Shown here: positions 748 through 61,989 of the stretch, piece by piece | Numbering within the stretch: position 1 is the stretch's first letter | Layout: every line of letters starts with the position of its first letter | DNA from: Ceratodon purpureus | Taxonomy: Eukaryota > Streptophyta > Bryopsida > Pseudoditrichales > Ditrichaceae | Direction of reading: 5' to 3' | DNA: 64,000 nt | Assembly: GCA_014871385.1 (NCBI GenBank) | Contig: CM026426.1 | Coordinates: 93,912,238-93,976,237 of the forward strand | The notes under the pieces: model-generated | The model's database searches: none | Told to the model about the DNA's origin: nothing | Seen by the model: only the letters and a program-made list of their open reading frames with translations | Translations under genes and position numbers: made by a program

Positions 748-989
748 CTCAGGAGTGACAGAAAACGAAGCAGAAGACAAACGTGACGGTTAGGACGACG
801 GTCGACGGACAGCCGACTTGCAAGCAACATTATTTGGAGAAAGGGAGAGCGTACAACTTGGCATTTACCGAAAATTTATTCATATTTGGCAGTACAAACA
901 TCTAACACAATCCTAGCGCCCGATCACTACACTAATTTATCAATGCAGGCATTTAAAAGATGGACTGGGCCACCGCCTGATTTACTGAC
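748..989 (-). other. L gene intron 4 with hairpin
   Basis: Non-coding stretch between the acidic/basic exon and the HAD exon. The donor in copy A is a weak GTCAGT; the E2 copy has GTAAGT at the same place. It holds an E hairpin, GTCGACGGACAGCCGAC at 801-817, matched in E2 at 61932-61948. Confidence 0.6.
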
Positions 990-2184
990 CTCCACCTTTG
1001 TGCTTCTTCGACCTAGGCTCCCGTTTGGATGCCCGTGGAGGTGACAGAACGTCCTCTGGAGCGTCCACATTCTTGGGACTCATGAGCTGTTCCCCAGATG
1101 TGCCCTTCTTGGAGGAAGTCTTCTTTGAAGCAGCCTTCCGTTTGCCCTTCCCAGAGGACTCCTCCCCTTCCTGAACCCCTGAGGAATCGCGGAATACGTT
1201 ACCTACAAGAGAGGAATCCTGAGCAATACCATCGGTCTTACTTCTCTTTGCTGCTCGTGTCTTGCCCAGAGGGTTCTCATCTAGGCCAATCATCCGAGTT
1301 GCGCCCTTCACATCCTGAGTGACGAATGCGATTGACTTCCCTGTCAACTTGGACTTGGCAGAGGGGTTAGATGAGGTTTGCTCGTCTGCCGTCAGCTGCC
1401 CGCCGACGGCAGTAGGAGGAAGATGCCCTTCAATGCTCACTGCAAGCTCCTGGGTTGGTTTAGGGACACGGACAACCAGTTCTTCGTCAGGCCTCGATGC
1501 TAGAGGAACCTGCATCTTCTTTGGAGGCCCCGCCTGGTCTAGGTCAAGTACTGGCTCGGCGAGAGGAGTCTCCTGCTCATGTATTGTAGGAGAATTATTA
1601 CCGAAGCCGAGGGAGTCCGTTCCTTGCTCCCTTGTAATTTGCGACAGCGGTGGGTTTACGTAACGAGGATTCGAATATTCTAGTGGTACCACGTCGGGTT
1701 TTGGTTTATAGTCTATGTCCTCCGTGTATTTCTCCTCTACCTCTGCATCTCCAGTTGGAATGCGAGCCTCAGCTTGGTCGTCCTCGTTTTTTGCCTGTTC
1801 CTCAGCATCTCCAGTTGGAAGGGAAGCTTCACCTTCAACGTCTGGGTCGGGTACATCTGGTGGGTCCTCGTCGACATCTTCGTCGGAGTCCTGAACATTC
1901 TGTGAAGGAACCCCTGCAGTCTTCCCTGAACCCATACATTCACCCTTTCCGACCAAATGGGCCTCCTCAGCATTCACACCCAAGTCGGCAGGCGTGAGAG
2001 TGCCAGTCCTGGCTCTAGCAGAGGCGGGGACAGAATGCCTGGCCCCAGACTGCGTGTTCAGAACTGGGGCTTGGAGGGGCACGTTATAAACGCCTGGAAT
2101 GAACGTCATATTCCGAACCCGACAATGCGCTTGGAATCTCTCTTCCTCGGTACGCACGATCTCTATTACTGTCAAATGGTTTTT
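990..2184 (-). CDS. L gene exon 4: acidic and lysine-rich low-complexity region
   Basis: Reading leftward from an acceptor at 2185-2186 (CTGCAG), the frame encodes about 397 residues: a conserved start VIEIVRTEEER, then a Pro/Asp/Glu-rich acidic middle with two copies of a PTGDAEEQAKNED-like unit, then a Lys/Ser-rich tail (for example KGKRKAASKKTSSKKG) that looks like a nuclear localisation region. E2 has the same exon near 60666-61770 with clear similarity at the start (VIEIVRTEEERFQAHCRVR against LIEIVRREEEKYNAHCRVR). An E hairpin lies inside the coding sequence (1391-1407) and is read as a Pro-rich LPPTAVGG segment. No enzymatic domain recognised; composition suggests a disordered linker before the HAD domain. 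The frame is open throughout. Confidence 0.72.
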
Positions 2185-2318
2185 CTGCAGAAGAACAAGA
2201 CAAAACGGTTAAGGAAATCTTGTACCCAAGAAACACGAAGGATGCAATGAGCGTCGGTTGCCCGCCGACGATCAGTGAGCAAACAGCGAAGGGACTAGAA
2301 GAGACAGCAGTGACTTAC
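2185..2318 (-). other. L gene intron 3 with hairpin
   Basis: GTAAGT donor at 2318 and CTGCAG acceptor at 2185 flank a 134-bp intron. It contains the hairpin GTCGGTTGCCCGCCGAC at 2253-2269. The E2 intron carries the same hairpin at 60584-60600. Confidence 0.72.
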
Positions 2319-3647
2319 CAGAGCGAGGGCCGTGACGTTCCCCCCTCCCTAGCAATTGATCACCCGAACGTCCTCTAACTGCATTGCTTTCTCCAAAAGA
2401 GATTGGAGGTAAGAGTAACAAGCGTGGCAGTCTCCATTAGACCAATCCTCCCCAAGACCGTCTTCTCCTTCGTCCACATAGGGAGGAAGCGGACGTTTCA
2501 AACCAGTGAAGTCCGAGAAGGTATTCCATGCATCCCCGGGCGTTGTTTTTGGATACATAACGGGCACATGAACCTTGGGCCTAGAGTCAATGAGAGAACT
2601 CCTTTGAAACCCGGCGGAACTATCGGGGAAGTATTGCATAGTATGCACCGTCCACAAACTACCCGTCAACCTTGACACGCCTTGAAGAATGTAATTGGAC
2701 TCAGCATCGAGTAGCCACAAGGATGGGGTGACAAGCTTATTCACCCTAATTGTTTCTCCCTCCCCATCCACCTGAATGACCTTCTCCTCTACCTCACGGT
2801 GAATCCTCTCAGCGACGCTTAGAATGTCTCTTTGTTGCAAGTTCGGCATCTCATTTCCCGCTGGATCGTAGCCAAAGACTACGAACATCTCATACTGCGC
2901 CTTGTCGAAGGAGAACGCTCCGCGAACGTCAAGAGTTGTGCACACTTCACCGAGGTCCTGTGCAATCCGGGCATCGAATTGTACAGACGACTGCGAAGAC
3001 TGGTCCACATCCAACTTCCAGTACTTCTACACAATGTCTTTGAAGAATTCGGGTGTTGCCCCGTGCGACGGCGTGAGCGGATGATTTCGTCCCTTAAGCC
3101 ACTCCTTCCCCTCCGGACTATCTTCCAAGTCAGCCCGAATATTACTAATCATCGTATCATTGAACCCCTTCTCGACTTGAAGGGAATTCCAGTCATCCAT
3201 GCTCCACTCAATATGCTTCCCAGTCCTTGGTTTCTTAGGTGCGAAGCCCCTGTAAATGCACATAAGCTCGTTTCGGACAACATACTTGTATTTCACATGC
3301 TTACACCAATTCTCCAATGATGTTCCATCTCGTTGAACCACCTCTTTCTTAGTGACCTTGACGTACACTTTAAGGTCCAGAATTTCCTTGGCCAGCCTCT
3401 TGGCTTCGTGGTCCCGAAGGCCGATCACCCACTGCATGTCGTTGAGTGTTATGTCCCGGCGGGCTGGCTTTAGGGGAAATCCTGGTTTTAAACCGTCCTC
3501 CCCGATGATCCTTTCCTCCTCCCAGGCATTGAAGACCAGTTGCCACTCGTTGTATGTTTCGTCAGACACGAAGACTAAGGGTAGCTTGATGGTTTAGGAC
3601 ATAGGGGACTTTCCGAGAATCGGACTGAGATACTCCTTGCAGAATTC
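2319..3647 (-). pseudogene. L gene exon 3, unrecognised domain, with in-frame stops
   Basis: Leftward frame of about 440 codons matched along its length by E2 (59584-60530): SDETYNEWQLVFNAWEEE against SNETYNEWQLVFNAWKDG, and LVTPSLWLLDAESN against LVTPSLWLLNEESN. No family recognised. Copy A has in-frame stops: a TAA near 3593, a TAG near 3025 and a TAG near 2347. The last replaces a Trp codon (INNWGG in E2 against INC-stop-GG in A), a TGG to TAG change. Because the E2 breaks sit elsewhere, the ancestral exon was open. The exon lies between an acceptor at 3648-3649 (TTGCAG) and a donor at 2318. Function unknown. Confidence 0.65.
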
Positions 3648-3781
3648 CTGCAAGGAAGAAGAAAATGAAATCGGGAAATCAATCTCACTTCTACAATACG
3701 GAAAACCACCTGAGCGTCGGCGGGCCGCCGACGACTTTCAACTACATGTAAACAACAGGAAAAGAGGAAGATGTGAATTAC
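3648..3781 (-). other. L gene intron 2 with perfect hairpin
   Basis: Donor GTAATT at 3781, acceptor TTGCAG at 3648. It holds GTCGGCGGGCCGCCGAC (3716-3732), a perfect palindrome around its central base. The equivalent E2 intron has GTCAGCGGCCCGCTGAC (59502-59518), also perfect. Confidence 0.72.
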
Positions 3782-4530
3782 CTTCCATGCGCTGAAGTCA
3801 TCTTTCTTGTCAATCCTCCCCCTCTCGATCCATTTAGCGCGCATCTTCTCCAGCTGGGACCTAAAACTTACTTTGGCAACTTTATCCTTCACCTCGATGT
3901 TTAATGCGTTAGAGACCTTAATGAGGGTATCCTTGTCATCAGACCATACAAGAATGATATCGTGGTTAAGGTAATACTGCCGCATAGGAGAGTCCAGTGG
4001 TTCCTTCTTAAATGTGCCGTCAGCCTGTTTATGCGAAAATTTGAGAGTTAGGGCTGGCATAGGTCTAAGAATTGCTTCCAAGCCTTTAAGCTTAATAATC
4101 TCGCCCGCCATTGGATCCTTTACTCTGGGGTAACCACTCAAAGGAAGGCAGTATATCTTGGGCTTCTTCCGGATTGCTCCAAGTCCTTTGTAGAAAAGAC
4201 TTATCTGATCTTGCCTCTTCCTGAATATCGCTCTGTACTTAAATGTGTCGGGAGCTATGTGTATTCTGTCATATGGAATCTGACAAGGAAGGGCACGTTG
4301 CTTGTTGGGGAAGCAGTGCAGAAGTACCAACTCCAACGTCTGGTACATAGCAAGGACGTCGGTGTCCTTTGTTTAGGAAGTGAGATTGTTTGCGAGCATG
4401 AGAGCTTCCGCCACGGTCTGCTTTTTCTCTTCCATATTCCCACCTTTCTTCTGTCTCCCACCCTCGCCCTCAGTAGCCGCTGCCTTTCCCTTCTTCTTTC
4501 TCGATGACTCCCTTGTCGCCTGTGTCTCTC
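3782..4530 (-). pseudogene. L gene exon 2, 3' part (left of the CACTA1 insertion)
   Basis: The leftward frame continues the exon interrupted by CACTA1: a basic Lys-rich stretch (SSRKKKGKAAATEG), then VAEALMLANNLTS, then a conserved core (DRIHIAPDTFKYRAIFRK, ISLFYKGLGAIRKKPKIYC, YYLNHDIILVWSDDKDTL) ending at a donor at 3781. E2 matches this from 58600 to 59452. A stop follows NNLTS in both copies. No recognised domain. The piece between 4348 and 4255 is read in two overlapping frames, so one frameshift may be present. Confidence 0.62.
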
Positions 4531-4599
4531 CACCATAAGAATCCCGCGTTTTAGGTGACATCCCGAATCATGTCTAAAAAAACAAGTGGACGTTGTAAA

Positions 4600-5260
4600 G
4601 GATGTTGTGCAGACATGAGAACATCAAAGACGCAGCAAAAACAAATGCAGACATCCTAAAAAACATGCAGACATCTATGTAGCACGCGCGTCTCTGGGTG
4701 ATTTTGAGGGGCAGTGAAGTATGCAACGTGGACGCCACGTCGACAACACATCAACAAAGTTTATCCGGGCAGTGCCACATGGGAGGAGGATGTCATCGCT
4801 GCCATGGTGACGTAGCGGACCACGTGGACCCGCCATTTTCTGACGTGGCGGCGCGAAATTCTGACGTGTCAGCCGCGAAGGAGTGACGTGGTTTGCCACG
4901 TAAGCATAGTTTCCGGTGATTTTTGAGTTAGAACTGCGTTATTGTAGACGTCATCGAGGATATCACCGTGGTTTTTGAGACGTCTATGTGGTGACAACGT
5001 GATGTCCACGTCGATGACTGTGCGGACGTGAACTGTGTCCGACATTTGTTATAGTGGACATCCCCATGCTGAAGAATTTGCCATGCTTGACATGGCCATG
5101 TCAATGTGTACGTGATGTATGGAAGGGTATTTTTGCAAAGATGAATGTGTTTTTGTAGACATGAAGGTGTTTTGTAGACATGAGGGTGTTTTTTGTCGAC
5201 ATGAAGGTGTCTTTGCAGCCACAAAGGTGTTTCGATAGCCATGATGGTGGCATTTGATCA
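4600..5260. repeat. CACTA1 left subterminal repeats (TGACGTGG and GTAGACATGAAGGTG types)
   Basis: From 4680 to 4910 the motif TGACGTGG or its complement recurs (CCACGTGG, TGACGTGGCGG, GTGACGTGG). From about 5140 to 5250 a unit of 24-26 bp close to GTAGACATGAAGGTGTTTT is repeated four or five times with drift. Repeated subterminal motifs are the usual transposase-binding regions of CACTA elements; that role here is inferred. Confidence 0.75.
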
Positions 5261-6160
5261 CAAGAAAACTAAGGAAAGAAGATCACATGAAGAAAGGAAC
5301 AAGGGAGGAAAGGAGACAAGAAGAAGATGGAGAACAAGAATGAAGTTAGGAGAACCCCCCCCCGGATTTTTTTGAAGTACCTTTCAGTTTTTAGGTTGCC
5401 ATCTCTCCATTCTAGCTTGGATTGAGGCGTGCCTTATCTTTTTGGAAAGCTAAGTTGATTGTGCATCTACCCTCAAAATCTCAAAAGCATAGGATCAAAA
5501 TCCTCAGACTGATTGCTAAAAATCCGAGACCCTTCCTCCAGCCGCACTCCTTTGACAACCCCAACTTTGGGAGGCAATATCTCACTACCTATAACTCAGA
5601 ATTGGACGTGCTAAATACCATTGGAAAGCCCTACAAGAGATCTAAAACTATGGTGAATCTCACTCTACTTGGAGAAGAAACAAGGGACTGATAGGGAAAA
5701 CAATGGGAGACAGTCCATGGAGGAGGAAGAAAACACCAAAAGCTTGAAAACAAGCTCTCAAAATACAAGGTGAGAAGCCGCCGAAGTGGCGGCTCACCCT
5801 AACCCTACCAAGGCTGAAAACCCTAACCTAAAGCCTTGATGGATGAATGTTGCCACCAATGAATGAAAAATGGATTATTGAACATCACCATGTCTCAACA
5901 GATGTCTTTGTTGACATCTTTCGAGACAGGCGGACATCTCCAAAAAAGAAAGAGAGAAGAACTTTGATATTGTAAATTTCATTTATAAAGAAAAAATAAA
6001 AAAAGGTTCTTAAATCCCTCTCGGCCTTTTTTTGCTCCCTTTGTTGACCCTGCCCTTCTTGTGGTTTTTTTCACTGTGAGCAGAAAGTTACCTTGCAGCC
6101 TCGTAACTTCGCGCCCATTTTACCGTCCGTCAAAACGAGGCTGTTGTTGACGTGGCAATT
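5261..6160. other. CACTA1 interior without recognised gene
   Basis: An 89-codon rightward frame (5422-5691, starting MRRALSFWKAKLIVHLPS) is the only reading frame of note; it has no recognised family and no homologue in the window. The rest is AG-rich sequence, a short C run at 5356-5364 and a CCCTAACCCTA-like run at 5788-5830. I see no transposase. Confidence 0.4.
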
Positions 6161-6393
6161 ACGTGTCTACAAGGATGTCCTCTGCCACGTCCCCATAGAC
6201 GCGGACGTTTTTCCAAACGTCTTTGCGTTTTTAGGATAGCGCGCTCGTGTCTGGTGACGATAAGCCCAGTTTATCTCAAAAAACAAGTGAACGTCTTCAC
6301 GTTCCTCAAGACATGAATGACTAACACAGAGACATGAAAAAAACACGACCATGTTTTTGGAGAACGTCACCTAAAACGCGGGATTCTTATAGT

Positions 6394-6963
6394 GCTCCGG
6401 TCTCGGGGGTGACTGTACCAGTGCCCGCTTCTACAGCAGACTTGCGGCCGCCTCTTTTCTTTGGTGAAGGCTTAACCGAGCTCTTCGTCTTGTCTTCCAT
6501 CACTTTGTCTCCGAGCGTATCAATCACGTCGAGTATGTCGTCACTTTTTACGGTAGTGTTCTCGCCCCTGCCCCAAGGAGCCGCTTCCTGTACTTCCTTG
6601 GAGCACAAGCTGTCCATGCACTTCTTAGCCGGAATTACAACCGCGAAGCACTCCACTGGAATCCCCTCCGCCACAAGAACCGATGCAAACACCAAGAACA
6701 CGTCGTCCTTATCCTTGCATTCCCTGGCTCCAATAATCTCGAATCTTGGTCCACCCGCCATTTGCTTCTGACCAATTTTGGTCACGAAGCCCAGTGACGT
6801 GGGTGTGTCACGACACGTGATGCCCCACTCCGTTATCTTCGCATTAGCGAGGAATGTCACCCTTGGTGTCAAGCCCTATGCTCGTATTGTTCCTTCAAGA
6901 TCAACAATCTTGTTACAGAGCCACCGTAACCCATTTGGTTTTGCGGTGAGGTCAACCATCGCC
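6394..6963 (-). pseudogene. L gene exon 2, 5' part (right of the CACTA1 insertion)
   Basis: Starts after an acceptor at 6964-6965 (TATGTAG) and reads leftward AMVDLTAKPNGLRWL, then KITEWGITCRDTPTSLGFV, a central KKCMDSLCSKEVQE and a basic SPKKRGGRKS stretch, until CACTA1 interrupts it. E2 (58023-58600) matches: PPGLRWLGG, then KITEWGITWRKDFETFATLG and KDVMCSKEALEH. Copy A has one TAG stop near 6880 between the two conserved blocks. No known domain. Confidence 0.65.
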
Positions 6964-7298
6964 CTACATAATCAGAATCACAAGATTAGACCATCAGAGT
7001 CTCACTCCATCAGCGGACAGCCGACGAGGGGGATGGACACTCCCTCTCCATCGGCGGATAGCCGACGGGGGGGATAAACCCAAATGAGAAACCCTTAACC
7101 TAAATGACTCAAGAAGGGGGAACGTCGGCGAACAGCCAACGGGGGGGAAAACTCATGCGAGAAAGGAGAAACTTAAATGACTGAAGAAGGGGTGGCGTCG
7201 GCGGACAGCCGACGGGAGGGACAAACCCATGCGAGGAAACGGAAACATGAAGGACTCAAGAAGGGGAGCGTCAGCGGACAGCGGACGGGACAACTTAC
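6964..7298 (-). other. L gene intron 1, filled by a hairpin minisatellite
   Basis: Donor GTAAGT at 7298 and acceptor at 6964 give a 335-bp intron. Choosing this donor gives a 20-nt first exon, the same length and phase as in E2 (57790-57809, donor GTATAT), which supports it. Most of the intron is the tandem repeat at 7009-7290. Confidence 0.68.
7009..7290 (+). repeat. Minisatellite of about 70 bp, each unit opened by an E hairpin
   Basis: Four to five units begin with CGGCGGACAGCCGACGGG-like hairpins at 7010, 7050, 7124, 7197 and 7270, followed by a G run, then CAAACCCATGCGAG, a GAAA-rich piece and GACTCAAGAAGGGG. Later units are about 72 bp apart. It lies wholly inside L gene intron 1. Confidence 0.85.
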
Positions 7299-7318
7299 TC
7301 ACTCTCGAAGTCAGCCAT
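7299..7318 (-). CDS. L gene exon 1 (start codon and six residues)
   Basis: ATG at 7316-7318 starts MADFES and is followed by a GTAAGT donor at 7298. The E2 copy starts MAEPKTR at 57790 with the same 20-nt exon length and phase. The ATG lies directly downstream of a GCCGACGAC run in A (GCTGACGAC in E2), which helps fix the start. Confidence 0.62.
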
Positions 7319-7604
7319 GTCGTCGGCGGATGGCCTTTTCACCGTCGGCGGATGAACCAAGAACAGCAGCCGACGCGCGCAGATGAAGGAGCCGACGCCT
7401 TGAACCCTAGCAGCCAACGCAGGAAACCCTAGCAGCCGACGCGACCTCCGCGGAGCGCTAAGAAGAGGACAAAAGAGAGCTGATAAAGAGAAGGCTGGAA
7501 ATGAGGAGGAAATGTCGGGAGTGGCGGGTGTATACTCTGCAGACCCCCACCTCCCGAGACTGAATCGTCACGCCCGATGGGTCATGACGTATGGCTATGT
7601 ACAT

Positions 7605-7624
7605 ACCATCCATGCATGGATGGT
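7605..7624. promoter_or_regulatory. Perfect 20-bp palindrome with overlapping RY motifs
   Basis: ACCATCCATGCATGGATGGT is self-complementary over 20 bp. E2 keeps 18 bp of it perfectly (57496-57513). The centre CATGCATG contains RY (CATGCA) elements on both strands, which plant B3-domain regulators are known to bind. Its place midway between two divergent genes suggests an operator for both; that is inference. Confidence 0.65.
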
Positions 7625-8213
7625 CATCCCAAACATCCGTCCCATCACGCCACGTAGGATGTTGATGGGATGTGTTTTGACTTTTTTTCAATCCGTCACC
7701 AAGTCATGATGGCGTGGGCATGTGATGTGACAGCTGCTCCAATCGCCACGTTCAAATTCGTAATAATGAACTAACATTGTTCTGTGACGGCGGGGGTATC
7801 TCGCCGCCATGATGGGATCTTGATCTGTTCAAGGCGCGCAAAATTGAATTCAATTCTGGCGCCAATTTGTACTCCTGGGAATTCATAACTAACCCCCCGT
7901 AAGATGCGCATACTTCATTCTATTTGTGTCATTGCACTTTCGATTCTCTCTGAGAGTGCTCCTCACGCACACGTTTCCTGAGAGAACCGTTATTATTCTC
8001 GCATGTGCTTAACTGTCTAGCACCTTCTGTTGCCGTTTCTGTTGTCTTCGTCTATCGTTTCTGATTGGACGGTTGAGAGGAGTCTCTGCTTGGACAGTTT
8101 AGAGGACACCATACTGCTTTTCACCTAAGGTCCCCTGCAATTTCTGTTGCCGGACGTGTCCGTCTTCGTCGGCGGATACTATTTCTGTGCACAGTCCGAG
8201 TTGTCCGATCCGC

Positions 8214-8308
8214 GTCGGCTGCCCGCTGAGTAGTCTTCGTTGTCGGCGGATACAGTTCTCTCCGTCGGCGGAGACACTTTCCGTCGACCCTATCGGCGGT
8301 CTGCCGAC
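8214..8308 (+). repeat. Hairpin cluster just upstream of the transposase start
   Basis: GTCGGCTGCCCGCTGAG at 8214-8230 and TCGGCGGTCTGCCGA at 8292-8308, with half-sites (GTCGGCGGA) at 8170, 8242 and 8265. E2 has a drifted equivalent near 56846 (GTCGGCGGACCGCCCGA). Confidence 0.75.
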
Positions 8309-8644
8309 GAGGTCTTCTTCTTCTATCCAATGGAAGTAGAGCCGATCCAGACGTTTTTAAGGAATGGCCGATCAGGGCGGTGGAAGGTTAAAAAGGGCGT
8401 TGTCGTGGCCCTTACTCATTCTGGGCTCTATTATGCAGGCAGGGCAGTGATCCAACGTGTTGTAGAATTTGATCCTATAGTGGTGATGGTAAAAGTGATT
8501 GAGGTTTCGGACAGCATGGAAATGAATATACCATTTTCGGATGAGGGTGTGAAGTCCTTGAGCAACTGCTTGGGACGCATGATATTGTGGGAGGCGGCAG
8601 ACCTCAGGCCTTTCAGAGAGGTGGAAGACGATGACATCGACGCC

Positions 8645-8661
8645 GTTGGCTGCCCGCCGAC
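8645..8661 (+). repeat. E hairpin inside transposase coding sequence
   Basis: GTTGGCTGCCCGCCGAC, read as VGCPPT. E2 keeps the site in weakened form (VSCLPT near 56490). Confidence 0.8.
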
Positions 8662-9001
8662 AGATGTTGTAGAAGATGTCAAGCCCGTTCAAGAATTCCT
8701 GGACCTCGCAGAGCAGATGGAAGTTGCGCTCCTCGAGGAATTTGGAGGCTCAAAGCGTTGTGTACCTGCGGGAGTCATTTTGGAGTGCTCTCCTAAAGGA
8801 ACGTGGGAGGGGTTCTTGATTCCTCACAGCTTCTTTCTAATAGTGAGAGTGTCGTCCGTCAATCCAGAATTCTCTGAAACACCTGCTTTCTGCGAGTTAC
8901 CGTATGTGTTAACAATCGGGTGTGCTGTGGGGCGATTGGTGCTTTGGAGTGGATACAAGGTATGTCCACTTGTGAACGGCGCTTTGGCTGGCACATGTCC
9001 C

Positions 9002-9018
9002 GTCGGCTGCCCGCCGAC
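9002..9018 (+). repeat. Consensus E hairpin inside transposase coding sequence
   Basis: GTCGGCTGCCCGCCGAC, the commonest form. Equivalent in E2 at 56249-56265 (GTTGGCTGCCCGCCGAC on the plus strand). Confidence 0.88.
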
Positions 9019-10102
9019 GGAACCTCACTTGGGGAACGACAATGAAGAAATTGATGAAAGCAACTCCGCTCCGTCTGAGCAGGATCTGGGGACTAGGTCT
9101 CCAATAAATATCAGCAGTGATGACGATGTGTCTAAACAGGGGGAATCCGACGTAGACACGGATGATCATAGTTGGATTCCGGATTCCAAGACCTTGGGTA
9201 CTCCTTCCACTCCTGATGCTTCATATCCTGACCGCCACCTCCGGAGAAATTGGTATGTCGAACTTCTTAATGATGACCTATCAGTCCGTGGTAGAGCAAT
9301 GATTCAAGTATGTTTACCGGACGAGGCATGTGATGATGAAGTCCTAGGGGATACAGAGGTTGGGGTTCTCTTCGACTCTAAAGACGATCATCTGCAGATG
9401 ACAACTCTCAGATGGCGTCTGACTCACACTCGCTTAGAAGGGGGTCACCTTCTCTCTGATATAATTACTTACTGCTCCGAGAATTTAGCAGACGCCGACG
9501 CGGACGATGGTCTGGATGGTGTCCCGAAGAATGCCTATCGATCGGTGAGGAAGAAAGTTCGCCAAAAAGATGACGTCTCCTCTACTTAGCTTCGTCGAAT
9601 GGTTGTCCCTGCTGAATGCCGCTTAGTAAGCTCAAAGCGGTGTTGCAAGGACCGATGTTGCCAGACTTTTAGATGGGAAGATAGTGTGCGTATTCGTGGT
9701 AGATTTTACTTAACAACATTCGAGGCGAGGCGAGAGATGTCCTTCGCTGTGCAAGGGCACTTACATACTGTATCCGGCAAGCGGAAGCTCTATGTTACTC
9801 TTGCGAACGTTGACGTATGTGAAGTGGCGTGGTATATCATTCACGGAGTATCAAAATCCGCGTACTACAGCTACAAGGCTTCGGCGAGAAGTGGCCGTGT
9901 CAATGGGAGTCACGGAAATTCCGGAGTACATCGTCCCCAGATTCACACAATCCAGGCACGCGCGACGTTGACCACTATCGTTAATGAGAATGCGGACCAA
10001 ATGCCCAATGAGTTTCGGATGATTGGCAAGAAGAGAGTGGCCGCGCTCAAAGTACTCCCGTCTGCGATGAACTAGAATCACATGCACGAAATGGCCAACG
10101 CC

Positions 10103-10227
10103 GTAAGTTCCTCCTCATCTTCTTTCACTTTGGATAGTTTATTGAATTGTTGTGATTACTAACGTCGGCGGCCCGCCAACCGGATGACGAACTGGCCAAT
10201 TGATCGGCCTCACTCTGTGCTGTTCAG
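10103..10227 (+). other. Intron of E transposase gene, with hairpin
   Basis: GTAAGT at 10103 and TGTTCAG ending at 10227 give a 125-bp phase-0 intron; E2 has the same intron at 55025-55149. The hairpin GTCGGCGGCCCGCCAAC sits at 10164-10180, and its E2 equivalent at 55072-55091. Confidence 0.85.
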
Positions 10228-12240: not shown

Positions 12241-12256
12241 TCGGCTGCCCGCCGGC
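12240..12256 (+). repeat. E hairpin overlapping the transposase stop codon
   Basis: GTCGGCTGCCCGCCGGC begins with the last base of the TAG stop. E2 repeats this arrangement at 44096-44112, where the hairpin again shares the G of the stop. Confidence 0.82.
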
Positions 12257-12894
12257 GATTGTGATCTTAGCTATAGAAGTCGTAGGTTGTGATGGTTTCC
12301 TGTGTAAACGTTATAGTTGAATATTCTAAACACAGTGATTCCTTCGAATAAGAATTGTATTTTACCATAGACCCAATATTAGTCATGTATTACGCTTTGT
12401 CTTCTATTTGTTGTTCTGTTGCCTTACTTTTCCTTCTTCGGTGGTCGTCGGCTGTCCGCCGATGCCTCTAACCATACTAGATAAGCATCATGATCGGTGA
12501 CTTCGTGAGGCTGGTCTATATTGTATGGCCTGTGATTTTTACGGTGGACACTGTTACACTGGTCGGCTGCCCGCCGACGCTTTCCACAACATTGGTAGAA
12601 CCACTATGCGCTTTGAGAAACTAGGAAAAAATATTTATCCATTTCATTATATTCTTATCGGAGTACAACGGTAGTGTTCTGCCCTTTACATGTTACTTTG
12701 TATTGTGTATACATCAGAGATGCCACTACTCCTAAAGCCTCAGTAACAAATGCTAACCATGAATTCTACAACTATCCGAGTGTGTGAAGCAGCTCTATTG
12801 AAAACGAGCTGGACAATTCTAACACACACTAATTCACCATAAAGCCTTTGTACACGGAGAAAAGCCGCATATGGTCGCCAACGTCATGCAGCGA
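12257..12894. other. 3' flank between transposase and third gene of E, two hairpins
   Basis: No gene seen. Two hairpins, GTCGGCTGTCCGCCGAT (12447-12463) and GTCGGCTGCCCGCCGAC (12562-12578), lie between the convergent 3' ends. E2 has their counterparts at 43727-43743 (GTCAGCGGGCAGCCGAC) and 43875-43891. A position between convergent genes would suit terminator or insulator roles, which is untested. Confidence 0.7.
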
Positions 12895-13410
12895 TCAGTC
12901 CTTCGCAGTAGACTTCGCTCGGACAGCACTACACCCAGGATCGACGGATGGATGCACGGATCCAAATGACAAATACGTGGACTGCGGGCTTGCATTCCCT
13001 CCGCACCACTGATCTTGGCCAGAGCACCGACTTCCAGCACCCTCCGAGATGTCGTAGGCTTCGTCAACAAGGCGGAGCCACCCTGCAGTTGACATGGTTT
13101 GCATTGACACTTCCCCTGTGTGGCTGAAGCTAACGCTGCCAACACTCTCACATTCCTCAGACTCCTCAGACTCCTCGAACGTCAGTGGGAAGGCAATGCC
13201 GGAAGCGTCAGATATCTCGAGCAATTCTAAGGTGTGAGCAATACTCCAATCCCACTCCGCACCTCGCTGCAGAACGCGTGTGATGTATTTGAAAGCAGGA
13301 ATAGTTGTGTTGCGAGAACGGGCGACCACCGCCCTAAACCATGGCCGGAGCTCCTCGACGTCAGCCGGTGTCTCCTGTATAAACCAGACATTGCTACCCC
13401 GCCTCCCCAT
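12895..13410 (-). CDS. Third gene of E, copy A: small acidic protein of unknown function
   Basis: An intact 171-codon frame starting MGRRGSNVWFIQETPADVEE, with VEELRPWFRAVVARSRN, then WSIAHTLELLEISDASGIAF, a Glu/Ser-rich stretch EESEESEECESVG and MSTAGWLRLVDEAYDISEG. E2 encodes the same protein split by T1: residues up to ASGI at 25698-25923 and the rest from 43126. Conservation in two diverged copies supports a real gene. No domain recognised. It converges on the transposase gene. The frame overlaps the 12834-13151 shadow, which I reject. Confidence 0.7.
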   Translation of the reverse strand: MGRRGSNVWFIQETPADVEELRPWFRAVVARSRNTTIPAFKYITRVLQRGAEWDWSIAHTLELLEISDASGIAFPLTFEESEESEECESVGSVSFSHTGEVSMQTMSTAGWLRLVDEAYDISEGAGSRCSGQDQWCGGNASPQSTYLSFGSVHPSVDPGCSAVRAKSTAKD

Positions 13411-13663
13411 AACGACAAAATATTGGACAATATGTGACTAACTTCTACAGTATGCGACCTTCTTCTACAGTATCCGGCTGGAGTTTGTCTAGTAAACTGG
13501 TAAACGTTCTAGTAATCCACTTCTCTAGGGTTTTCTGGACGACTAGTTGCCAACATGGACCTAGTCTAGTAGCGCCTACTCTCCAAGTCGGCGGGTAGCT
13601 GACTAGGACTAGCTTAACTATCTGCAGCTAGCCGCAGCTAGCCTAGTAGCGCCTACTCTCCTA

Positions 13664-19293: not shown

Positions 19294-19295
19294 TA

Positions 19296-22306: not shown

Positions 22307-22309
22307 CCC

Positions 22310-49314: not shown

Positions 49315-49447
49315 CATTATACCTAGATCTAGATTATAGCCAGATCTAGATTATATCCAGATCTAGATTATATCTATATCTACATTATATCTAGATCTAC
49401 ATTATATCTAGATCTAGATTATATCTCTATCTACATTATATCTACAT
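49315..49447 (+). repeat. Tandem repeat of about 18 bp, CTAGATCTAGATTATATC type
   Basis: Seven or so units, each containing the palindrome AGATCT or CTAGATCTAG, with drift to TATCTACATTATATC at the right end. Confidence 0.88.
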
Positions 49448-53221: not shown

Positions 53222-54923
53222 AGTGCATGAAGAGGAGCGGAAACGGCAGCATACCATGGTGACGAAGGCACTCCAACCGCGATGGCAAGGTGGCGCGATC
53301 GGTGGCGATGGCGGAGTCGGAGATCTGCAGGGAGATGCCGCGATGCGCTGGGAGTGTGAGTAGAGTTCGCAGTTCGTTGGTTTGCTTGCGCCTCGGACGA
53401 ATTTATTGCCAAGTCGTTCACTCCCCCGAAGATGCAATAACCCTATGATATCCTGTGATATCTTGGAGGTATTATGGTGATATCTTGGAGGTATTATGGT
53501 GATATGTTGGAGGTATTATAGTGATACCATGATGATATCCGTGGATATCATATCATAATGATGCTACATACTAATGACATGGTATAAATTTTGGCTAAAT
53601 TTCAATATAATTTCCATATTTTTCCTTTGGTTTGGTGTTCAAATTCAATTGCTACACATGCTTATCAACCATAACTCATTGCTTATCAATCATGGTTGGA
53701 TGCATGAACAATCCCTTAGCAATTTCTAGTCCGAGAAATGGTCGGCTTTTAGCAAAGTCCCTTGGCATGCGGGCACTACATTGACAAAATAATAGCACTA
53801 TTTGTTAGGCGTTTTGAAAAAATTTGTGGTTGCAAGTTAGTTTTTCATAATGTATTATATGTATTACAAAAAAAATGGCTTTCAAAATTCATAGTAAATT
53901 AAAGACTGAAGTAAACATGAAATTTAAAGTTACATTCTTCCTTAAACTTATTTTTCCTTCAAGGAAAAATCTACCTCGACTTACACACCTTCAAATGAGT
54001 GGGAAATCTCTTAACTGGTTGGTTTTAGGTACATTGACCTTAGTAAATATAGTACGTGGCTCAAGAACTGCTCAAATTTCAAATTGGCAGGCATGGTGGG
54101 GAGTTATTAAGGGAATGAAATTTTAGAAGATGTACAAAATATTTAGAAATTTTGACCAACTGAAATAACTGATTTTGGATAATTATTGATTGGTTAGTTA
54201 TGAATTTTGGAAGGGAAACTTATAAGTGGCTTAATAATTGCTTAGTCTAAAATATACACCATGATTCTATAGAAATTTAGCTTCTCAATCTTGAACTCCA
54301 TTGCAATTAGGTGAAAACTCAAATATGCTCGAATATGCTCGAATATGCTCGACTATTCTTTTATGGACCGGACATGACCCTTAACGGACGGACGAGCGGA
54401 CCGGACGGACGGTCCGGTCCTTATGTCCCATGAACAACCCTGCTGTTGATTAGGGAAGTTAGATATTATGTAAGTGAAGATTATGGACCTACTCCGATTT
54501 TACAGCACTCACCAATTGAGTCAATGAGTTAGATAACTTTAAAATCATTTAATTGAAATATATTACTACTATTAGTCAAGTTAAAGACTACATGACTACA
54601 CGTAGTTACCCGAATCAACTCTATGACAACACTACATCATACACAAATTAAATACCAATACCATATGACTATGTTAGTATGACTCCAGATAGTAAGCAAT
54701 CAATGCATGACTATGGGAACATCGCAGGGGAACATATGGCTCGTTCCCGAAGACGTTCCCACCCAGTTCCTCAAAAAAATGATTGGGTAAATGACTAGTC
54801 CGTGACTAGTCCATGACTGGACCCTGTTATGACTGATGTTTGACTAAATTAATGACTGATGTGACTATGCGGTCACATGGGCCGGTTTACATCTAGTCAC
54901 ATTCGGCTGGATTTGTTGTAGTG
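53222..54923. other. Right part of CACTA2 with short tandem repeats
   Basis: 53222-53430 is GC-rich and could be another captured exon or leader on the minus strand, unassigned. 53450-53530 has GGTGATATCTTGGAGGTATT repeated three times. 54325-54352 repeats AATATGCTCG, and 54390-54420 has GGACGGAC/GGACCGG runs. 54760-54880 carries GTGACTAGTCC-type subterminal repeats. Frame 53875-54126 has no family. Confidence 0.6.
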
Positions 54924-55024
54924 TTACTTCCTACCGCCTTGACCTCAATATTGCGGAAGTACTCCTTCCTCATGTGATGAATAGAGGATTGTGAAATTGG
55001 CTTCGCGTCCCACTGCACATTCAC
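54924..55024 (-). pseudogene. E2 transposase exon 2 piece, 5' side of CACTA2
   Basis: Minus strand, from the acceptor CTATCCAG at 55025: GTGAATGTGCAGTGGGACGC, then MRKEYFRNIEVKAVGS-like coding, matching copy A 10228-10330. Ends at the TTA duplication. Confidence 0.88.
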
Positions 55025-55149
55025 CTGGATAGTACAAAGTGAGGACAATCAGTTGGCTAGTTTGTGATCCAGTTGGCGGGCCGCCGTCGACAGAATTGAC
55101 TAATGTGGAGACTATTAACGAGTACAAAAGATGAAGTGGAGGAACTTAC

Positions 55150-56820
55150 GACATTGGCTATTTTGCGCATGTGATTCCAATTCATCGCGGACGAGAGTAC
55201 TTTTAGCACACCCTCTCTCTTCTTGCCAATCATCCAAAACTGTTTAGGCATTTGGTTTGCATTCTCATTAACAATTGTGGTCAACGTCGCACGCGCCTGC
55301 ATCGTGTGAATCTGGGGACAATGTACTCCAGAATTTTCGAGACTTCCATTGATGCTGCCACTTCTCGCCATAGCTTTGTAGCTGTAGTATGCGGATTTAG
55401 AGACACCGTGAATTATATACCATGCCACTTTGCATACGTCGACGTTGGCAAGAGTAACATAGAGCTTCCGCTTACCAGGTACAGTATGCAACTCCTTTTG
55501 CACAGCAAACAACATTTCTCGCCTGGCCTTGAAGGTTGTTGCGTAAAATCTACGACAAATATGCACAGTATCTTCCCATCTAAAGGTCTGACAACATCGG
55601 TCCTTGCAACACCTCGTTGAACTAACTAGGCAGCATTTGGCAGGCACAAGCATTCGGCGCAGCTTACTAGAGGAAACGTCATCTTATTGGTAAACTTTCC
55701 TCCTCACAGAGCAATAGGAATTCATCGGAACACCATCTAGAGCATCGTCCGCGTCGACATTTCGTAAATTCTGGGAGCAATACATGATTATATCAGAGAG
55801 AATGTAACCCCCTTCTAATCCTGTGTGAGTCAAACACCATCTAAGATTAGTCATCTACAGAAGAACATCTTCAGAGACGAAGAGAACCCCAGCTTCTGTA
55901 TCCCTTAGGACTTCATCATCACATGCCTTGTCCGATAAACATACTTGAATCATTGCTCTACCACGGACTCATAGGTCATCATTAAGAAGCTCGCAATACC
56001 GATATCTCCAAAGATGGCGGTCGGAATATGATGTGTCGGGAATCGAAGGAGTACCCAAGGTTGCCAATTCCAGACCCCCACTATGATCATCAGTGTCTAA
56101 GTTGTATCCACCTAGTTTGGACTCCTTGTCATCATTGAAGTGATTTCTTTGAGACCTAGTCACTTCAACATGAGTCCTTAGATCCTGCTCAGCTGGAGCG
56201 GAGTGGATTTCATCAATTTCTTTGATGTCATTCCCAGAGTGGAGTTCTGTTGGCTGCCCGCCGACGGGACATGTTTGTGCATGCGCGCCGTTCACAAAGG
56301 GACAGACCTTGTATCCACTCCAGAGTATCAATTGCTCCACAACGCGCCCAATCGTTAACACATCCGGTAACTCGTGCGGCAACACAACGCCTTGAATTCT
56401 CGGATTCCTAAAGAAGCGCAACTTCCATTTGCTCTACGCGGTTGAAGAACTCCTGGACGGGCTTGACATCTTCTACAACTTCTGTCGGTAGGCAGCTTAC
56501 GGCATTGACGACATCTTCATCCAATTCTCTGTAAGGCCTAAGGTCCTCCGCCTCCCACAATATCATGCGTTCTAAGCAGTCGCTCAAGGTCTTGAAACCC
56601 TCCTCCAGATATGGTACATTCATTTCCATGATGTCTGAAACCTCAATCACTTTTACCATATCCAATATAGGATCTCAAGATACTATACGTTGGATCACTG
56701 CTCTGCCTGCATAATAGAGCCCAGAATAAGTAAGGGCCACAACAATGCCCTTTCTAACATTCCACCGCACTGATCGGCCATTGCTTAGAAACGTATGGAT
56801 CGGCTATAGTTCCATTGGTA
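55150..56820 (-). pseudogene. E2 transposase exon 1
   Basis: Minus-strand match to copy A exon 1 along its length: MEMNVPYLEEGFKTLSDCLE, EDVKPVQEFFNRVEQMEVAL, LVSSTRCCKDRCCQTFRW, GVSKSAYYSYKAMARSG, RATLTTIVNENANQMP. Reads through the two stops of copy A (Lys and Trp codons) but has its own stops near the start (after MEL), near 56670 and around 55690-55970, and frame changes between 56421 and 56408. The exon ends at a GTAAGT donor (55149). A 125-bp intron follows. Confidence 0.85.
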
Positions 56821-56829
56821 AGAAGTGGA

Positions 56830-57789
56830 AGACCTCGTCGGCGGACCGCCCGATAGACCCAAAGGGAAATGCTCATCCTCAGTGAGAAGACTCTATCTGC
56901 TGACAATAGCCAAGTCTCGGCGGGCAGCAGATGTGCATTGTACGACCGCGGCTGTGTAGAGTAATATCATCCGCCGACTATGACGGATAGTTTTGCTGAC
57001 AGATAATGGAGGAGACCTATCTTGCAATGCAATTAAACTCCTCTAACCAGTTCAATCAAAAACAAAGGAAGAAGTTAACGTAAACGGCAGCAGAAGGGCT
57101 GCAAAGTTACTCACATATGAAAATAATGTCGGTATTCTTAGAAACGAGTGCGTGAGGAGCACTCTCAGAGGGGATCGAAAGTTCAATGACAGAAATAGAA
57201 TGAAGCATACGCATTTGATGGGGTGTTAGTTATGAATTTTCAAAAGAACAAATTGGCGCCACAATCAAATGCAATTGCGCCCGCTTTGATCAGATTAGGA
57301 TGCGAAATATCCCCACCCTCGGTGAACAATGTTAAATCATTATCTCAAATTTTAAAGTGGAGATTGGAGAAGCTGTCCCATCAGTCACCTACGACGTTGA
57401 GGTCCATCAATTTGACTTGGTGACGGATTCAAATTAAGTGACAACACGTCCCATCAAAATCCTACATGGCGTGATGGGACAGATGTGACGGATGGCCATC
57501 CATGCATGGATGGTATGTACATGGCCATACATCATGTTCCATTGGACGTGACAATTTAGTCTCGGGAGGTGAGGGTCTGGAGGGTATACACCTCTCCCTC
57601 CCGACATTTCCTCCTCATTTCCAGCCTTTTCTCTTGGAGCTCTCTCTTGTCCTCTTCTTAGCTCACTGCAGAGTCCGCGTCGGATGCTGGTTTTGCTTGC
57701 GTTGGCTGGTGCTCCTGTATGCCTTTGTTCTGCAGCGCCCAGCCGACGATTTTTGAACCGCTGATGAAGAAACACGATTTGCTGACGAC
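56830..57789. promoter_or_regulatory. Divergent promoter of E2
   Basis: Equivalent of 7319-8329. Keeps the central palindrome (57496-57513), the GTCTCGGGAGGTGAGGGTCT block (57562) and hairpin remnants at 56846. Frames 57434-57775 and 57502-57756 are opposite-strand shadows. Confidence 0.7.
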
Positions 57790-59452
57790 ATGGCCGAGCC
57801 TAAGACAAGGTATATGGTCCCCTTAGCTGTCCACCGATGCTTCTTCTTGCTGATTCCTCCATTTCTTAGACATGGAGTGTCTTCCTGTCGACTGGTCGCC
57901 GACGGGCACAGAGTGTCGCCTCGTCGGCTATCGCCTATAGGGATAGACTCTGACCCTGTCGGCTGTCCACTGATGCGGAAGGGGTTTGACCAGCTGGTGG
58001 GCTGTTTGTACTTCTTTTTGCAGGGAGGTCGTTAACGTAAATAAGAAACCTCCAGGGCTAAGATGGCTTGGTGGGGAGCTAGTTTCCAACTCCAACATAA
58101 CTGCAGGGGACCACAAACCGAGGACCACATCCCTTGGTGATACCAAAATAACGGAGTGGGGCATCACCTGGCGTAAGGACTTTGAGACCTTCGCAACCCT
58201 AGGATACGTGTGTAAAATGGGTGAGAAGGAATTGAGGGTCAGCCTACGAGTCGATGTTTTGGCAGCCAAGGAATGGCCAAGGAGTCCGCCACAGAGCGTC
58301 TGCTTGTTGCTTTGAATGATCCTTATGGGGGATCCCAATCCAACCGATTGCATAAGGGTCCTCTTGCCTATTAAGACGTGGAAGGATGTCATGTGTTCCA
58401 AGGAGGCACTCGAGCACATGCAATTCCCCAACAAACACCTTGATAACGTTGGAGACTTCCTCGATTGTTTTCATCTTCTCATCATGGCAAGGAATGAAGT
58501 CTAAAGGCACATGCTGGCTTCTCTGAAGCCTACACCAAAAGAAAGAGCTCTCCGCAAGACTGCTATTGAATTCGGGACTGATACCGTCACCTCGGAGACC
58601 GAAGAGACACATGAGATTGGGGAAACAACAAAAAAGAACAAGAAGAAGGTTGCAACTACTGAAGGAGCGGGGGGGGGGGGGGGGGGGGGGGGGGAATTGA
58701 AGAGAGTTGGAAAATAGGAAGAGAAGAAGCAGAGTTTGGCGGACGCTCTATTTCTCGCAAACAATCTAACTTCGTAGACGAAGGACATCGGCGTGCTTGC
58801 TATGGACGACACGTTGGAGGAGGGACTTGGGCACTGCTTTTCTTATGGGCAATATGCTATTCCCTCGCACATTCTACATGATAAGATACACATAGCTCCC
58901 AACTGTTTGAAGTACAGGGGGCTCTTTAAGAAGAGGCAGGCACAGATAAGTCTATTCTACAAAGGACTTGGAGCGATTCGAAAGAAGCTGGAGCTGTACT
59001 GCCTTCTGTTGAATGAAAACTTTGTCAAGAAGGATAATTTGACGGGCGAGATCACGATGCCTGGCCTTGTAGCAATTATTGATCCAATGCCGGCAGAAAA
59101 TCTGTGCTATTTTTATTGTAATGATGACGGCAGTAGCAAAACGGTACCTTGGTATAATGCGGATCACATCCACTGGTATATTATTGGGAGCCAGCACACG
59201 TACGAGGCTTGTCGAGAAGTAGGAGAGAAGAAACCATTTGATTTGCCTATGCGGAAATACTACCTCAATCACGATGTAATCCGTGTATGGGCTAAAGACG
59301 AGGACACCCTCATTGATGTGTCTGATGCATTGAACATCGAGGTCAACGATAAGGTCGCCGAAGCAGACTATTGGTCCTTGTTGGAGAAGATGCGCGCAAA
59401 GTGGGACAAGAAGGGAAAGATCAACAAAAGAGCTCTCTCGAAAAGATGGAAG
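57790..59452 (+). pseudogene. E2 L gene, exons 1 and 2
   Basis: Exon 1 MAEPKTR (57790-57809, donor GTATAT), intron with three hairpin-like sites (57898, 57957 and 57930 region), exon 2 from 58023: PPGLRWLGG, KITEWGITWRKDFETFATLG, KDVMCSKEALEH, LASLKPTPKERALRK, then a run of about 25 G at 58669-58693, then SLADALFLANNLTS, HDKIHIAPNCLKYRGLFK, QISLFYKGLGAIRKKLEL, YYLNHDVIRVWAKDEDTL. Stops after 58315, 58504 and 58717 and the G run break the frame. It has no CACTA1 insertion. Confidence 0.8.
58669..58693 (+). repeat. Poly-G tract of about 25 bases in the E2 L gene
   Basis: An almost pure G run inside a coding exon where copy A has GGCGAGGGTGGGAG-like sequence. It is the longest G run in the window; the E2 left end has 15. 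Confidence 0.85.
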
Positions 59453-59583
59453 GTAAGTTATAGTTTCTTCCCCCACTGTTGTTCACTTGTAGTTCAAACT
59501 TGTCAGCGGCCCGCTGACGCTAATATGGCCTCCCCTTTTGTTCCAGAAATCTTGACTTAACGTGTTCATTGTCTTCTACTCTG

Positions 59584-60530
59584 CACGAGTTCTGCAAGGA
59601 GTTCCTCAGTCTAATCCTTGAAAAAGCCCCTTAGGCGAAATTGTGGAAAGTGCCCTTAGTCTTTGTATCTAATGAAACATACAACGAGTGGCAACTAGTC
59701 TTCAATGCATGGAAGGACGGGGAAATCATTGGAGAGGATGGTTTGAAACCAAGCTTTCTCCGAAAGCTAGCTCGCCGGGACATAACGTTGAACGACTTGC
59801 AAAGGGTGATCAATCTCCGAGACCACGAATGGAAGAGGCTGGTGAAGGAGATTATGGACCTTTAAGTATACATCAAGGTTACTAGAAAGGAGCTAGTCTG
59901 ACGGGATGGAATATCATTGCACGTATGGTGCGAGAAGAATAAACTCAATTACGCCATTTGGAACGAGCTTATGCTGATTTACAGGGGCTATCCGCTTCTC
60001 ATGTTCATTCGGTAACAGCAAATGAAGATGGTGGGTGAGAGGATTCTGTGTGAGGTGGAAGAAGAGCTCTACAAGGAAGATTAGTCGCCAAGAAAAAATA
60101 AGGTGTTGAAGCTTGTCACCCCCTCCCTTTGGCTACTCAATGAGGAGTCAAATCACCAACTTCAGGTCAAGTCAAGACTGTCACGTAGCCTGTGGAAGGT
60201 GCATAGAATGCGGTACCTTCCCGTTTGTCCCAATGGGTTCCAAAGGAGCTCACAAGTTGACTCAAGGCCCAATGTTTTTGTGTCCCTTAAGTATACGACT
60301 CCACCAACGCCCGGGGATACATTTAAAACCTTCTTGGACTCACCGGCTTGAAACGGCCGCTACAACCATATTGAGACTAAGCAGATAAGGGTTTTGTAGA
60401 GGATTGGTCTCGCAGTGAGAACTTCCACGCAAGCTACTTTTACCTCTAGTCTCTCTTGGAGACAACGATGAAGTCAGAAGACATGCGGGTCATTAACAAT
60501 TGGGGAGGTAGGAACGTCATGGCCCTTGCT
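59584..60530 (+). pseudogene. E2 L gene, exon 3
   Basis: SNETYNEWQLVFNAWKDGE, ARRDITLNDLQRVINLRDHE, LVTPSLWLLNEESN and a final INNWGGRNVMALAL match copy A exon 3, with a missing stretch after about 60000 and several stops. The preceding intron (59453-59583) holds GTCAGCGGCCCGCTGAC (59502-59518), the following one GTGGGCGGGCAGCCGAC (60584-60600). Confidence 0.78.
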
Positions 60531-60665
60531 CTGGTTAGTCAATGCTCTCTCTCTCTTATGTAGTTATTGTTGTCCCACTAATTGTGGGCGGGCAGCCGAC
60601 GCTCAGTGCATCCTTCATTTCTACTCTCCTACTGTTCCTTAATCCTTTCATCTTGTGCTTCTGTA

Positions 60666-61770
60666 GAAAAACCATTTGATGTTAATAGAGATTGTACGTC
60701 GCGAGGAAGAGAAGTACAACGCACACTGTCGAGTGAGGAGTATAACGTTCATTCAGGGTGAGTATAACGTGCCCGTTAAAGCTCCGGTCCAAAAGACCCA
60801 AGGCGGAGCAAGCCTGTCTGTCCCCTCCACTGCGAGGACAGCGACAGCCACTCTCACACCAGCTGACTTGGATGTAAATGCACAAGAGGCCCATATGATC
60901 GGGAAGGGCGGATCTCCGGTTTGGGGAATTTTTCCCGGGTTCCGGTACTAGTACTTGAATCTGACAGGGAGGGCCTGGATCCACCAAACGAGGACAACCC
61001 TGAATTTGAAGCTTAGGGTCTACTTGCGACCGGCGAAGCTGAGGTCAAGGAAAAATACGATGACATGGTGGACTACGAACCAGATCTGTATGAAGTCATG
61101 TTGGATGATTCCAATCCTTGTTACATAAACCCTCCTCTGTCGCAAGTTGAGGGGGAGCAAGGAACAGGCTCCTTGGGTTCGGTCATAAATCTCTTATGAT
61201 CCAGAAGACTGAGACTTCTTCTATAGAGCCTCTTGTTCAGCTTGACCAGGTTAGGCTTGAAACAACGGTGCAGGAACCTCTTCTATTGAAGCCTAAACAA
61301 AAGGAAGTTGTACGAGTTGCACCAACCCAGGAGCCGGCAGTGAGCATTAATCGGTAGGGCTTGCTGCGCTAGTCGGCGAGCCACCAACGGGCAACGAGCA
61401 AACTCTGTCCAACCCTCTCGCCAAGTCCAAGCCCGAACTGAAAATTGCAATTGTCAAGGATGGTGTCCAGGACGCAACACTGAGGATTGGGCTAGATGAG
61501 AACCCTAAAGGCAAGACACGCGGAGCGAAGAGAAGTAAAGTTGATGATCCTGCTCAGACCACTTCTCCTCAGGGCAACTTTTTCCCTGATTCCGCAAGGG
61601 GAAGAGTCTTCTGGGATGAAGTAACAAAAGGGTCGGGAAAAAAAGAGTTCCTCTTAGAGGGGCACATGTGGGGACCCGCTCATGAGTCCAAAAGATCTCG
61701 ACGCTCCTGGGGTCGTGTTATTGCCGCTGCAAAATTCCTCTAAAGGTCATAAGCCAAAGAAGGCCAGAGG
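60666..61770 (+). pseudogene. E2 L gene, exon 4
   Basis: LIEIVRREEEKYNAHCRVR, SITFIQGEYNVPVKAP and TLTPADLDVNAQEAHMIGKG match copy A; later parts (KGKTRGAKRSKVDD near 61510) match in shifted frames. A GTAAGT donor at about 61771 closes it. An in-exon hairpin remnant GTCGGCGAGCCACCAAC lies at 61372-61388. Confidence 0.75.
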
Positions 61771-61989
61771 AGGTAAGTTTATCAGGCGGTTGCCCAGTCC
61801 ATCTTTTAGTTGCTTGCATTGAGAATTTAGTGTAGAGTTCCGATGTTAGGTTTGTGAAGCCAAATACAAATAAATCCTCGATAAATGCCAAGTTCTAGGC
61901 TTTCCCTTTCTTCAAAAGTTGTTGTTTGGATGTCGGCTGTCTGCCGAGTGTCGTCCTAACCGTCACGTTTGTCTTTTGCGTTGTTTGCT

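Follow-up and report, generated by a model that had tools for sequence, protein, structure and literature searches.

A 17-bp near-palindrome repeated along a DUF7869-gene transposon of Ceratodon purpureus as a candidate set of protein-binding sites

Why should a transposon carry the same short palindrome in its introns, upstream regions, 3′ flanks and even its coding sequence? The question is raised by a stretch of 64,000 nucleotides from Ceratodon purpureus (assembly GCA_014871385.1, contig CM026426.1, positions 93,912,238 to 93,976,237; hereafter the window, numbered from its first letter), which holds two copies, E and E2, of an element with a DUF7869 gene. E lies on the plus strand at 1-14523; its left end is beyond the window and its right end, taken as the point where E2 ceases to be homologous, is at about 14523. 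E2 is an inverted copy broken into pieces between 62359 and 24137, all on the minus strand: a main part at 54895-62359 (homologous to E 383-10354), a part at 43144-44270 (E 12082-13161), the outer end at 24137-25923 (E 13195-14523) and a fragment at 48708-48819 (E 10325-10436). Identity is 71 to 79% over four aligned segments. The answer we favour tentatively, giving it close to an even chance, is that the palindromes are dispersed binding sites for a predicted dimeric DNA-binding protein.

We searched for the near-palindrome GTCGGC-N5-GCCGAC, counting mismatches over its 12 arm positions. At two mismatches or fewer, 37 sites were counted in the window (7 with exact arms, 18 with one mismatch and 12 with two), compared with a mean of 0.41 and a largest count of 3 in 100 whole-window shuffles. 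Shuffling the E and E2 regions alone in 500-bp blocks (n = 200) gave a mean of 0.495, again with a largest count of 3; in these local shuffles 0.01 sites are expected at one mismatch or fewer, where 25 are observed, and 0 with exact arms, where 7 are observed. Both sets of shuffles rule out chance or GC content as the source of the count, a point on which the sequence-only reading of this DNA had made its claim depend. Among all 4096 six-base arms at a spacing of 5, GTCGGC ranks first with its 25 matches at one mismatch or fewer, and the runners-up, with 6 and 5 matches, are both one-step variants of it. At two mismatches or fewer the AT-rich arm AAATTT reaches 38 matches compared with 37, compatible with an AT-rich background, so that the count at this threshold is notable only against its own expectation. 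With the GTCGGC dyad masked, no other dyad of six-base arms (spacing 0-12 bp) exceeds 4 copies at one mismatch or fewer in the element. None of six tried versions of the 17-mer, nor the name DUF7869, occurs in the literature searched.

The motif is confined to the element: 22 sites fall in E (14,523 bp) and 15 in E2 (10,491 bp), whereas the other 38,986 bp of the window hold 0 at two mismatches or fewer and 5 at three. The sequence-only reading had put about 35 copies in the window, all inside E or E2, and the count bears this out. Most of its coordinates were exact; two move slightly (13588 to 13587 and 14027 to 14030), and two of its sites, 43875 and 56484 (its '56490 region'), are weaker, with 3 mismatches each.

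Both copies carry the motif at matching places. Thirty-two of the 37 sites have an aligned counterpart in the other copy, 29 of them with three mismatches or fewer and 3 with 4 or 5; the tally was made from both copies, so most pairs enter twice. Most sites therefore predate the separation of E and E2, which supports the earlier claim that they were fixed in the family before the copies separated: the motif set appears to have been largely in place by then. The five other sites lie in alignment gaps, two in a 117-bp gap inside a 73-bp tandem array, two in a 367-bp gap and one about half in a 19-bp gap. Change since the split consists of gain or loss of repeat blocks together with point mutation.

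Conservation was measured in 19 ungapped aligned site pairs, excluding the site at 8292 (one-base gap) and the five gapped sites. Identity between E and E2 is 185/228 in the arms, 79/95 in the centres and 1204/1751 in the flanks. Whole 17-mers are 0.817 identical, compared with 0.730 for random windows (P = 0.0026), and the centres, which unlike the arms played no part in site selection, are 0.832 identical compared with 0.730 for nearby random 17-column windows (P = 0.024). The sites might be relics without present function, once used and now decaying with E and E2, their pattern being inherited ancestry. As in methylated, decaying DNA, 19 of the 42 arm substitutions are C-to-T or G-to-A at arm CpGs; E2 is interrupted by insertions and stops, and gene A of E, the DUF7869 gene, carries one stop. 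We give this account very little credence: it is silent on why the ancestor had the sites, and the motif centres are still more conserved than random windows.

The centre is part of the word. With orientation assigned by positions 7 and 11 only, 25 of the 37 sites match the directional word GTCGGC-TRNCC-GCCGAC (T at 7 and C at 11, read on either strand): 11 sites face one way and 14 the other, homologous and tandem copies included. Once co-oriented, all 25 have R at position 8 and 23 have C at position 10. A centre shared by so many sites in one directional word cannot be a free loop. Across all 37 sites a weak symmetric consensus, approximately C-Y-M ... K-R-G, extends up to three bases past each arm; repeats contribute to it. 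At one position the centre itself differs in direction between the copies: the arms of 9002-9018 and 56249-56265 differ by one base, and their 5-bp centres are inverted (TGCCC and GGGCA in element orientation), which suggests a small flip at the palindrome.

The sites in E lie mostly outside coding sequence. With exon limits approximated from open reading frames (ORFs), 3 of the 22 sites in E are coding, compared with about 57% of E (P = 4 × 10⁻⁵); without four sites of the tandem array (7050-7270), 3 of 18 are coding (P = 6 × 10⁻⁴). In what follows the strand of a site is the orientation of its TRNCC centre, and sites without a sign are unassigned. Gene B has sites in introns at 801-817 (−), 2253-2269 (+) and 3716-3732 (exact arms), with E2 counterparts at 61932-61948, 60584-60600 (−) and 59502-59518, and in coding sequence at 1391-1407 (+), with its counterpart at 61372-61388. 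Upstream of gene A, a site at 7009-7025 (−) precedes a tandem array at 7051-7290 (73-bp unit, 3.3 copies, one motif per unit), whose sites are 7050-7066, 7124-7140, 7197-7213 (exact arms) and 7270-7286, all on the minus strand; the E2 site at 57887-57903 (+) aligns with that at 7197. Two more lie at 8214-8230 (+), upstream of gene A, and at 8292-8308, upstream of the first in-frame ATG of its ORF. Within gene A, 8645-8661 (+) and 9002-9018 (+, exact arms; counterpart 56249-56265, +) are coding, 10164-10180 (counterpart 55072-55088) is intronic, and 12240-12256 (+; counterpart 44096-44112, −) overlaps the last base of the stop codon. The 3′ flank of gene A has 12447-12463 (+) and 12562-12578 (+, exact arms; counterpart 43727-43743, −).

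Towards the right end of E are the subterminal sites 13587-13603 (−), 13664-13680 (exact arms, extended by CCTA/TAGG; counterpart 25376-25392, +), 14030-14046 (−, exact arms; counterpart 24622-24638, +), 14156-14172 (counterpart 24495-24511) and the weak 14286-14302. E2 has three further sites here: 24940-24956, which is subterminal, and 24974-24990 (+, exact arms), both in a block for which the alignment has a gap in E, and 25478-25494 (+), about half of it aligned to the 19-bp gap. Only 5 of the 22 sites in E thus lie between 13.5 and 14.4 kb; the others are internal or toward the left end beyond the window, and the motif is not restricted to subterminal regions as in CACTA elements. Tandem units bearing the motif occur in the 73-bp array and in 72-nt repeats of the E2 outer end, and most sites lie outside arrays. 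The E2 outer end (24934-25509) has three such 72-nt repeats with two dyad-like sites each, some in blocks aligned to gaps of E.

Among the mechanisms that the sequence-only reading had offered, protein-binding sites fit best, because the centre is conserved, the flanks are weakly symmetric, the sites are biased to noncoding sequence and the arms covary little. Its proposal of a DNA or RNA structure is disfavoured by the arms, and its mobile hairpin by the lack of general target duplications. The binder is probably the element's own protein, either the putative DUF7869 transposase encoded by gene A or the product of gene B or of a possible gene C.

The arms bear directly on the alternative that the motif works as a DNA cruciform or an RNA hairpin, for example in small-RNA seeding, transcription block or replication. 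Across the 222 arm pairs of the 37 sites we counted 34 one-sided changes, 12 of them leaving a G-T wobble, and 4 double changes (2 complementary, 2 not) compared with 2.5 expected by independence. Among 18 E sites taken as independent (7050, 7124, 7270 and 13587 being dropped as probable duplicates) there are 16 one-sided changes and 0 double. The compensatory base-pair changes that mark a structural hairpin are almost absent from the arms. Bases 7 and 11, which would extend the stem, are pairable in 3 of the 18 sites (mean 7.7, P = 0.011). One-sided changes and the avoidance of pairing at these bases make two protein-read half-sites a better fit than a selected stem. On the other side, all 7 exact-arm sites fold as hairpins (−6.9 to −12.9 kcal/mol, z −1.9 to −5.1), and subterminal sites have longer arms.

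Several observations weigh against protein binding. Over positions 1-8 outside the arms, the left and right flanks pair more often than do shuffled partners, in 22 E sites (66 compared with 50.6, P = 0.007) and in 18 E2 sites (58 compared with 41.7, P = 0.0015); for 15 E sites outside repeats the figures are 42 and 34.5 (P = 0.07). A plain protein site does not predict this excess, which speaks for structure. Eleven of the 18 independent E sites have complementary bases at positions −4/+4 beyond the arms (mean 4.0, uncorrected P = 0.0003, 12 positions tested). In these 18 sites, site-specific pairing is not significant at outward positions 1-3 and 5-12, and the pooled excess in this set rests mainly on position 4. 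A stem-selected structure is therefore disfavoured, with the arm changes against it and the outward pairing for it, and not fully rejected; as the functional form we regard it as quite improbable. Twelve of the 18 independent sites combine one A-type with one C-type half (mean 7.4, P = 0.013), an asymmetry that is not expected of a strict homodimer. The arm conservation figure is inflated, since similarity in the arms was how sites were chosen, and three sites lie in coding sequence. The scanned ORFs of the element contain no recognisable DNA-binding domain, only sub-cut-off matches (for example tudor-like, E = 0.09), and both structure models are poor, with predicted local distance difference test (pLDDT) scores of 36 (one sequence) and 30 (two sequences). 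Finally, the half-site GCCGAC is the core of a host transcription-factor (DREB) site.

That identity makes a host DREB factor the chief rival to a protein of the element. The arms would be dehydration-responsive element/C-repeat (DRE/CRT) cores for DREB-type AP2/ERF proteins, and the element would have gathered stress-response sites to drive its genes. The DREB core is A/GCCGAC (PMC8212459, from excerpts), and sites and the 73-bp array do lie upstream of gene A; no AP2 domain was found among the scanned ORFs of the element, meaning that the host would have to supply such a binder. In contrast with DRE/CRT sites as given in that source, two cores here face each other across a conserved 5-bp centre, and a promoter role needs no such paired inverted half-sites in introns, 3′ flanks and coding sequence. 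E and E2 together have just 13 solo half-sites, a count tied with one other at the top of 48 permuted CpG 6-mers and with no clear enrichment. We consider host-factor sites unlikely.

Could the palindrome itself have moved? A tiny palindromic repeat may have jumped repeatedly into the ancestral element ahead of the E/E2 split, in the manner of bacterial REPINs, short dispersed inverted repeats that form hairpins (PMC3116915, in the text available). Copying would easily explain one word in two orientations, and the word GTCGGC-TRNCC-GCCGAC has no stop codon in any frame in either orientation. Flanking direct repeats around the 37 sites include one of 6 bases, lying two bases beyond the 17-mer (mean in shuffles 0.14); otherwise there are 1 or 2 matches of 3-4 bases compared with shuffled means of 0.3 to 1.1, and hence no general target duplications. 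A match at the shared central base is trivial and was disregarded. None of the 13 gaps of 12-40 bp in the alignment of E and E2 spans a whole motif, so there are no clean empty sites; about half of the site at 25478 falls in the 19-bp gap of E, and two gaps, of 16 and 30 bp, adjoin a site in E2 that has 3 mismatches. Of the five sites with no counterpart, four lie in the 117- and 367-bp gaps. A hairpin mobile after the split is disfavoured by the missing target duplications and motif-spanning gaps. Excision footprints were set aside by reasoning, since they would not repeat one constant word. The three coding sites share one reading frame (VGCPPT at both gene A sites and VGGQL once), though a lone 17-bp insertion would shift it. 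REPINs are mobile across bacterial genomes according to the same excerpted source, whereas the sites here are confined to one transposon within the window, with no copies outside E and E2. Mobility before the split seems distinctly unlikely to us.

Returning to binding by a protein of the element itself, the putative site would comprise a 17-bp core, perhaps 23 bp with the weak symmetric flanks. Coating the promoter, the introns, the 3′ flanks and the subterminal region, the protein would mark the element as its own, and would, we suppose, bind most strongly at the array of 73-bp units upstream of gene A and at the subterminal cluster. Two outcomes can be envisaged: silencing might be countered over the full length of the element, which is what VANC does in VANDAL elements, or a transposition complex might be assembled or regulated, which is the part played by TnpA in CACTA elements. 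VANDAL elements are of the Mutator type, which is defined by its transposase, and tnp2-type enzymes are the transposase family of CACTA elements.

The nearest likeness is to VANDAL elements of Arabidopsis. VANC, a protein encoded by the element itself, is described as binding short, mainly noncoding motifs that are tandemly repeated and particular to one family or its close relatives, and as removing methylation along the entire VANDAL element (PMC5735166, PMC10398659), and tandem expansion of motif units is reported for VANC targets (PMC5735166). Our motif is likewise short, mainly noncoding, present in tandem repeats and specific to one family, the last within the window. The VANC21 motif YAGTATTAY, by contrast, has 9 bp, and the word palindrome is absent from PMC5735166, whereas ours is a 17-bp near-palindrome. 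The element here also has a DUF7869 gene rather than a Mutator-type transposase and no identified VANC homologue, most of its sites lie outside arrays, and their role in binding is a prediction. In CACTA (En/Spm) elements, repeated subterminal motifs bind TnpA-like proteins (PMC2613891, PMC8978399, both in part): soybean Tgmt* has a 17-bp motif that forms stem-loops (PMC2613891) and Jozin a 12-bp motif in 19 to 23 copies (PMC8978399). The many short copies in both orientations, and the subterminal cluster at 13.6-14.3 kb of E, resemble this arrangement. The CACTA motifs described in those excerpts are subterminal, whereas the sites in E are mostly internal (introns, upstream regions, 3′ flanks and some coding sequence) and the gene is of the DUF7869 type. 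Few transposon proteins are named as removing DNA methylation from their own element, namely VANC, Spm TnpA and MuDR MURA in the accessible part of PMC10398659.

The putative transposase of the DUF7869 element matches neither VANDAL nor CACTA elements. A bolder proposal, which we hold to be doubtful, is that a DUF7869-gene family independently evolved self-recognition, its own protein reading the 17-23 bp near-palindrome along the whole element, including introns and coding linkers, so that its chromatin stays open or the element is drawn together for transposition. If so, a further, unrelated family would have a whole-length motif set and self-recognition would seem to evolve repeatedly; gene products recognised only as domains of unknown function would gain a role, possibly as a new sequence-specific DNA reader.

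The genes of the element offer few other leads. The 5′ part of gene A (8234-10075, +) consists of two stop-to-stop ORFs in one frame, interrupted by the stop in E, and its main exon (10204-12240, +) matches DUF7869 (PF25273, E = 9.4 × 10⁻⁴²); we infer that the product is the transposase of the element. The ORFs of gene A have no Pfam match to a tnp2-type transposase, the main exon matching DUF7869 alone. Inspection by eye of the right end near 14523 showed no CACTA terminus, the left end being beyond the window, and with that same limit at the left end of E, comparison of the visible ends for terminal inverted repeats gave matches of 7 to 12 bases only. Searching viral and genome contigs with the DUF7869 exon found no related loci. 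Gene B (1-4372, −), approximated from ORFs as several exons, has a NIF/FCP1-like phosphatase domain in its 3′ part (1-789, −; PF03031, E = 3.9 × 10⁻¹²), with a counterpart in E2 at 61960-62331. To our knowledge no such phosphatase is known as cargo of DNA transposons, and a literature search for FCP1-bearing transposons found none. The possible gene C (12895-13437, −) has no Pfam match. In NCBIfam, 8 of 10 ORFs had no match; the FCP1-like ORF had HAD matches below the cut-off, and the possible gene C had one at chance level. Searches of solved structures with three ORFs returned E-values of 0.5 or worse, and Rfam at its gathering thresholds and a tRNA scan had no match in the window.

Some other features of the locus deserve mention. 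About 300 bp upstream of gene A, at 7411-7706 in E and 57413-57708 in E2, are 84% identical and among the better-conserved stretches; they contain ORFs on both strands with no above-cut-off family match and are perhaps a leader exon. Between pieces of E2, a 520-amino-acid open frame at 38412-39974 (−) has no Pfam match and may be a gene of another mobile element. A tandem array of a different 17-bp unit, ATTATATCTAGATCTAG, runs for 7.6 copies at 49316-49444.

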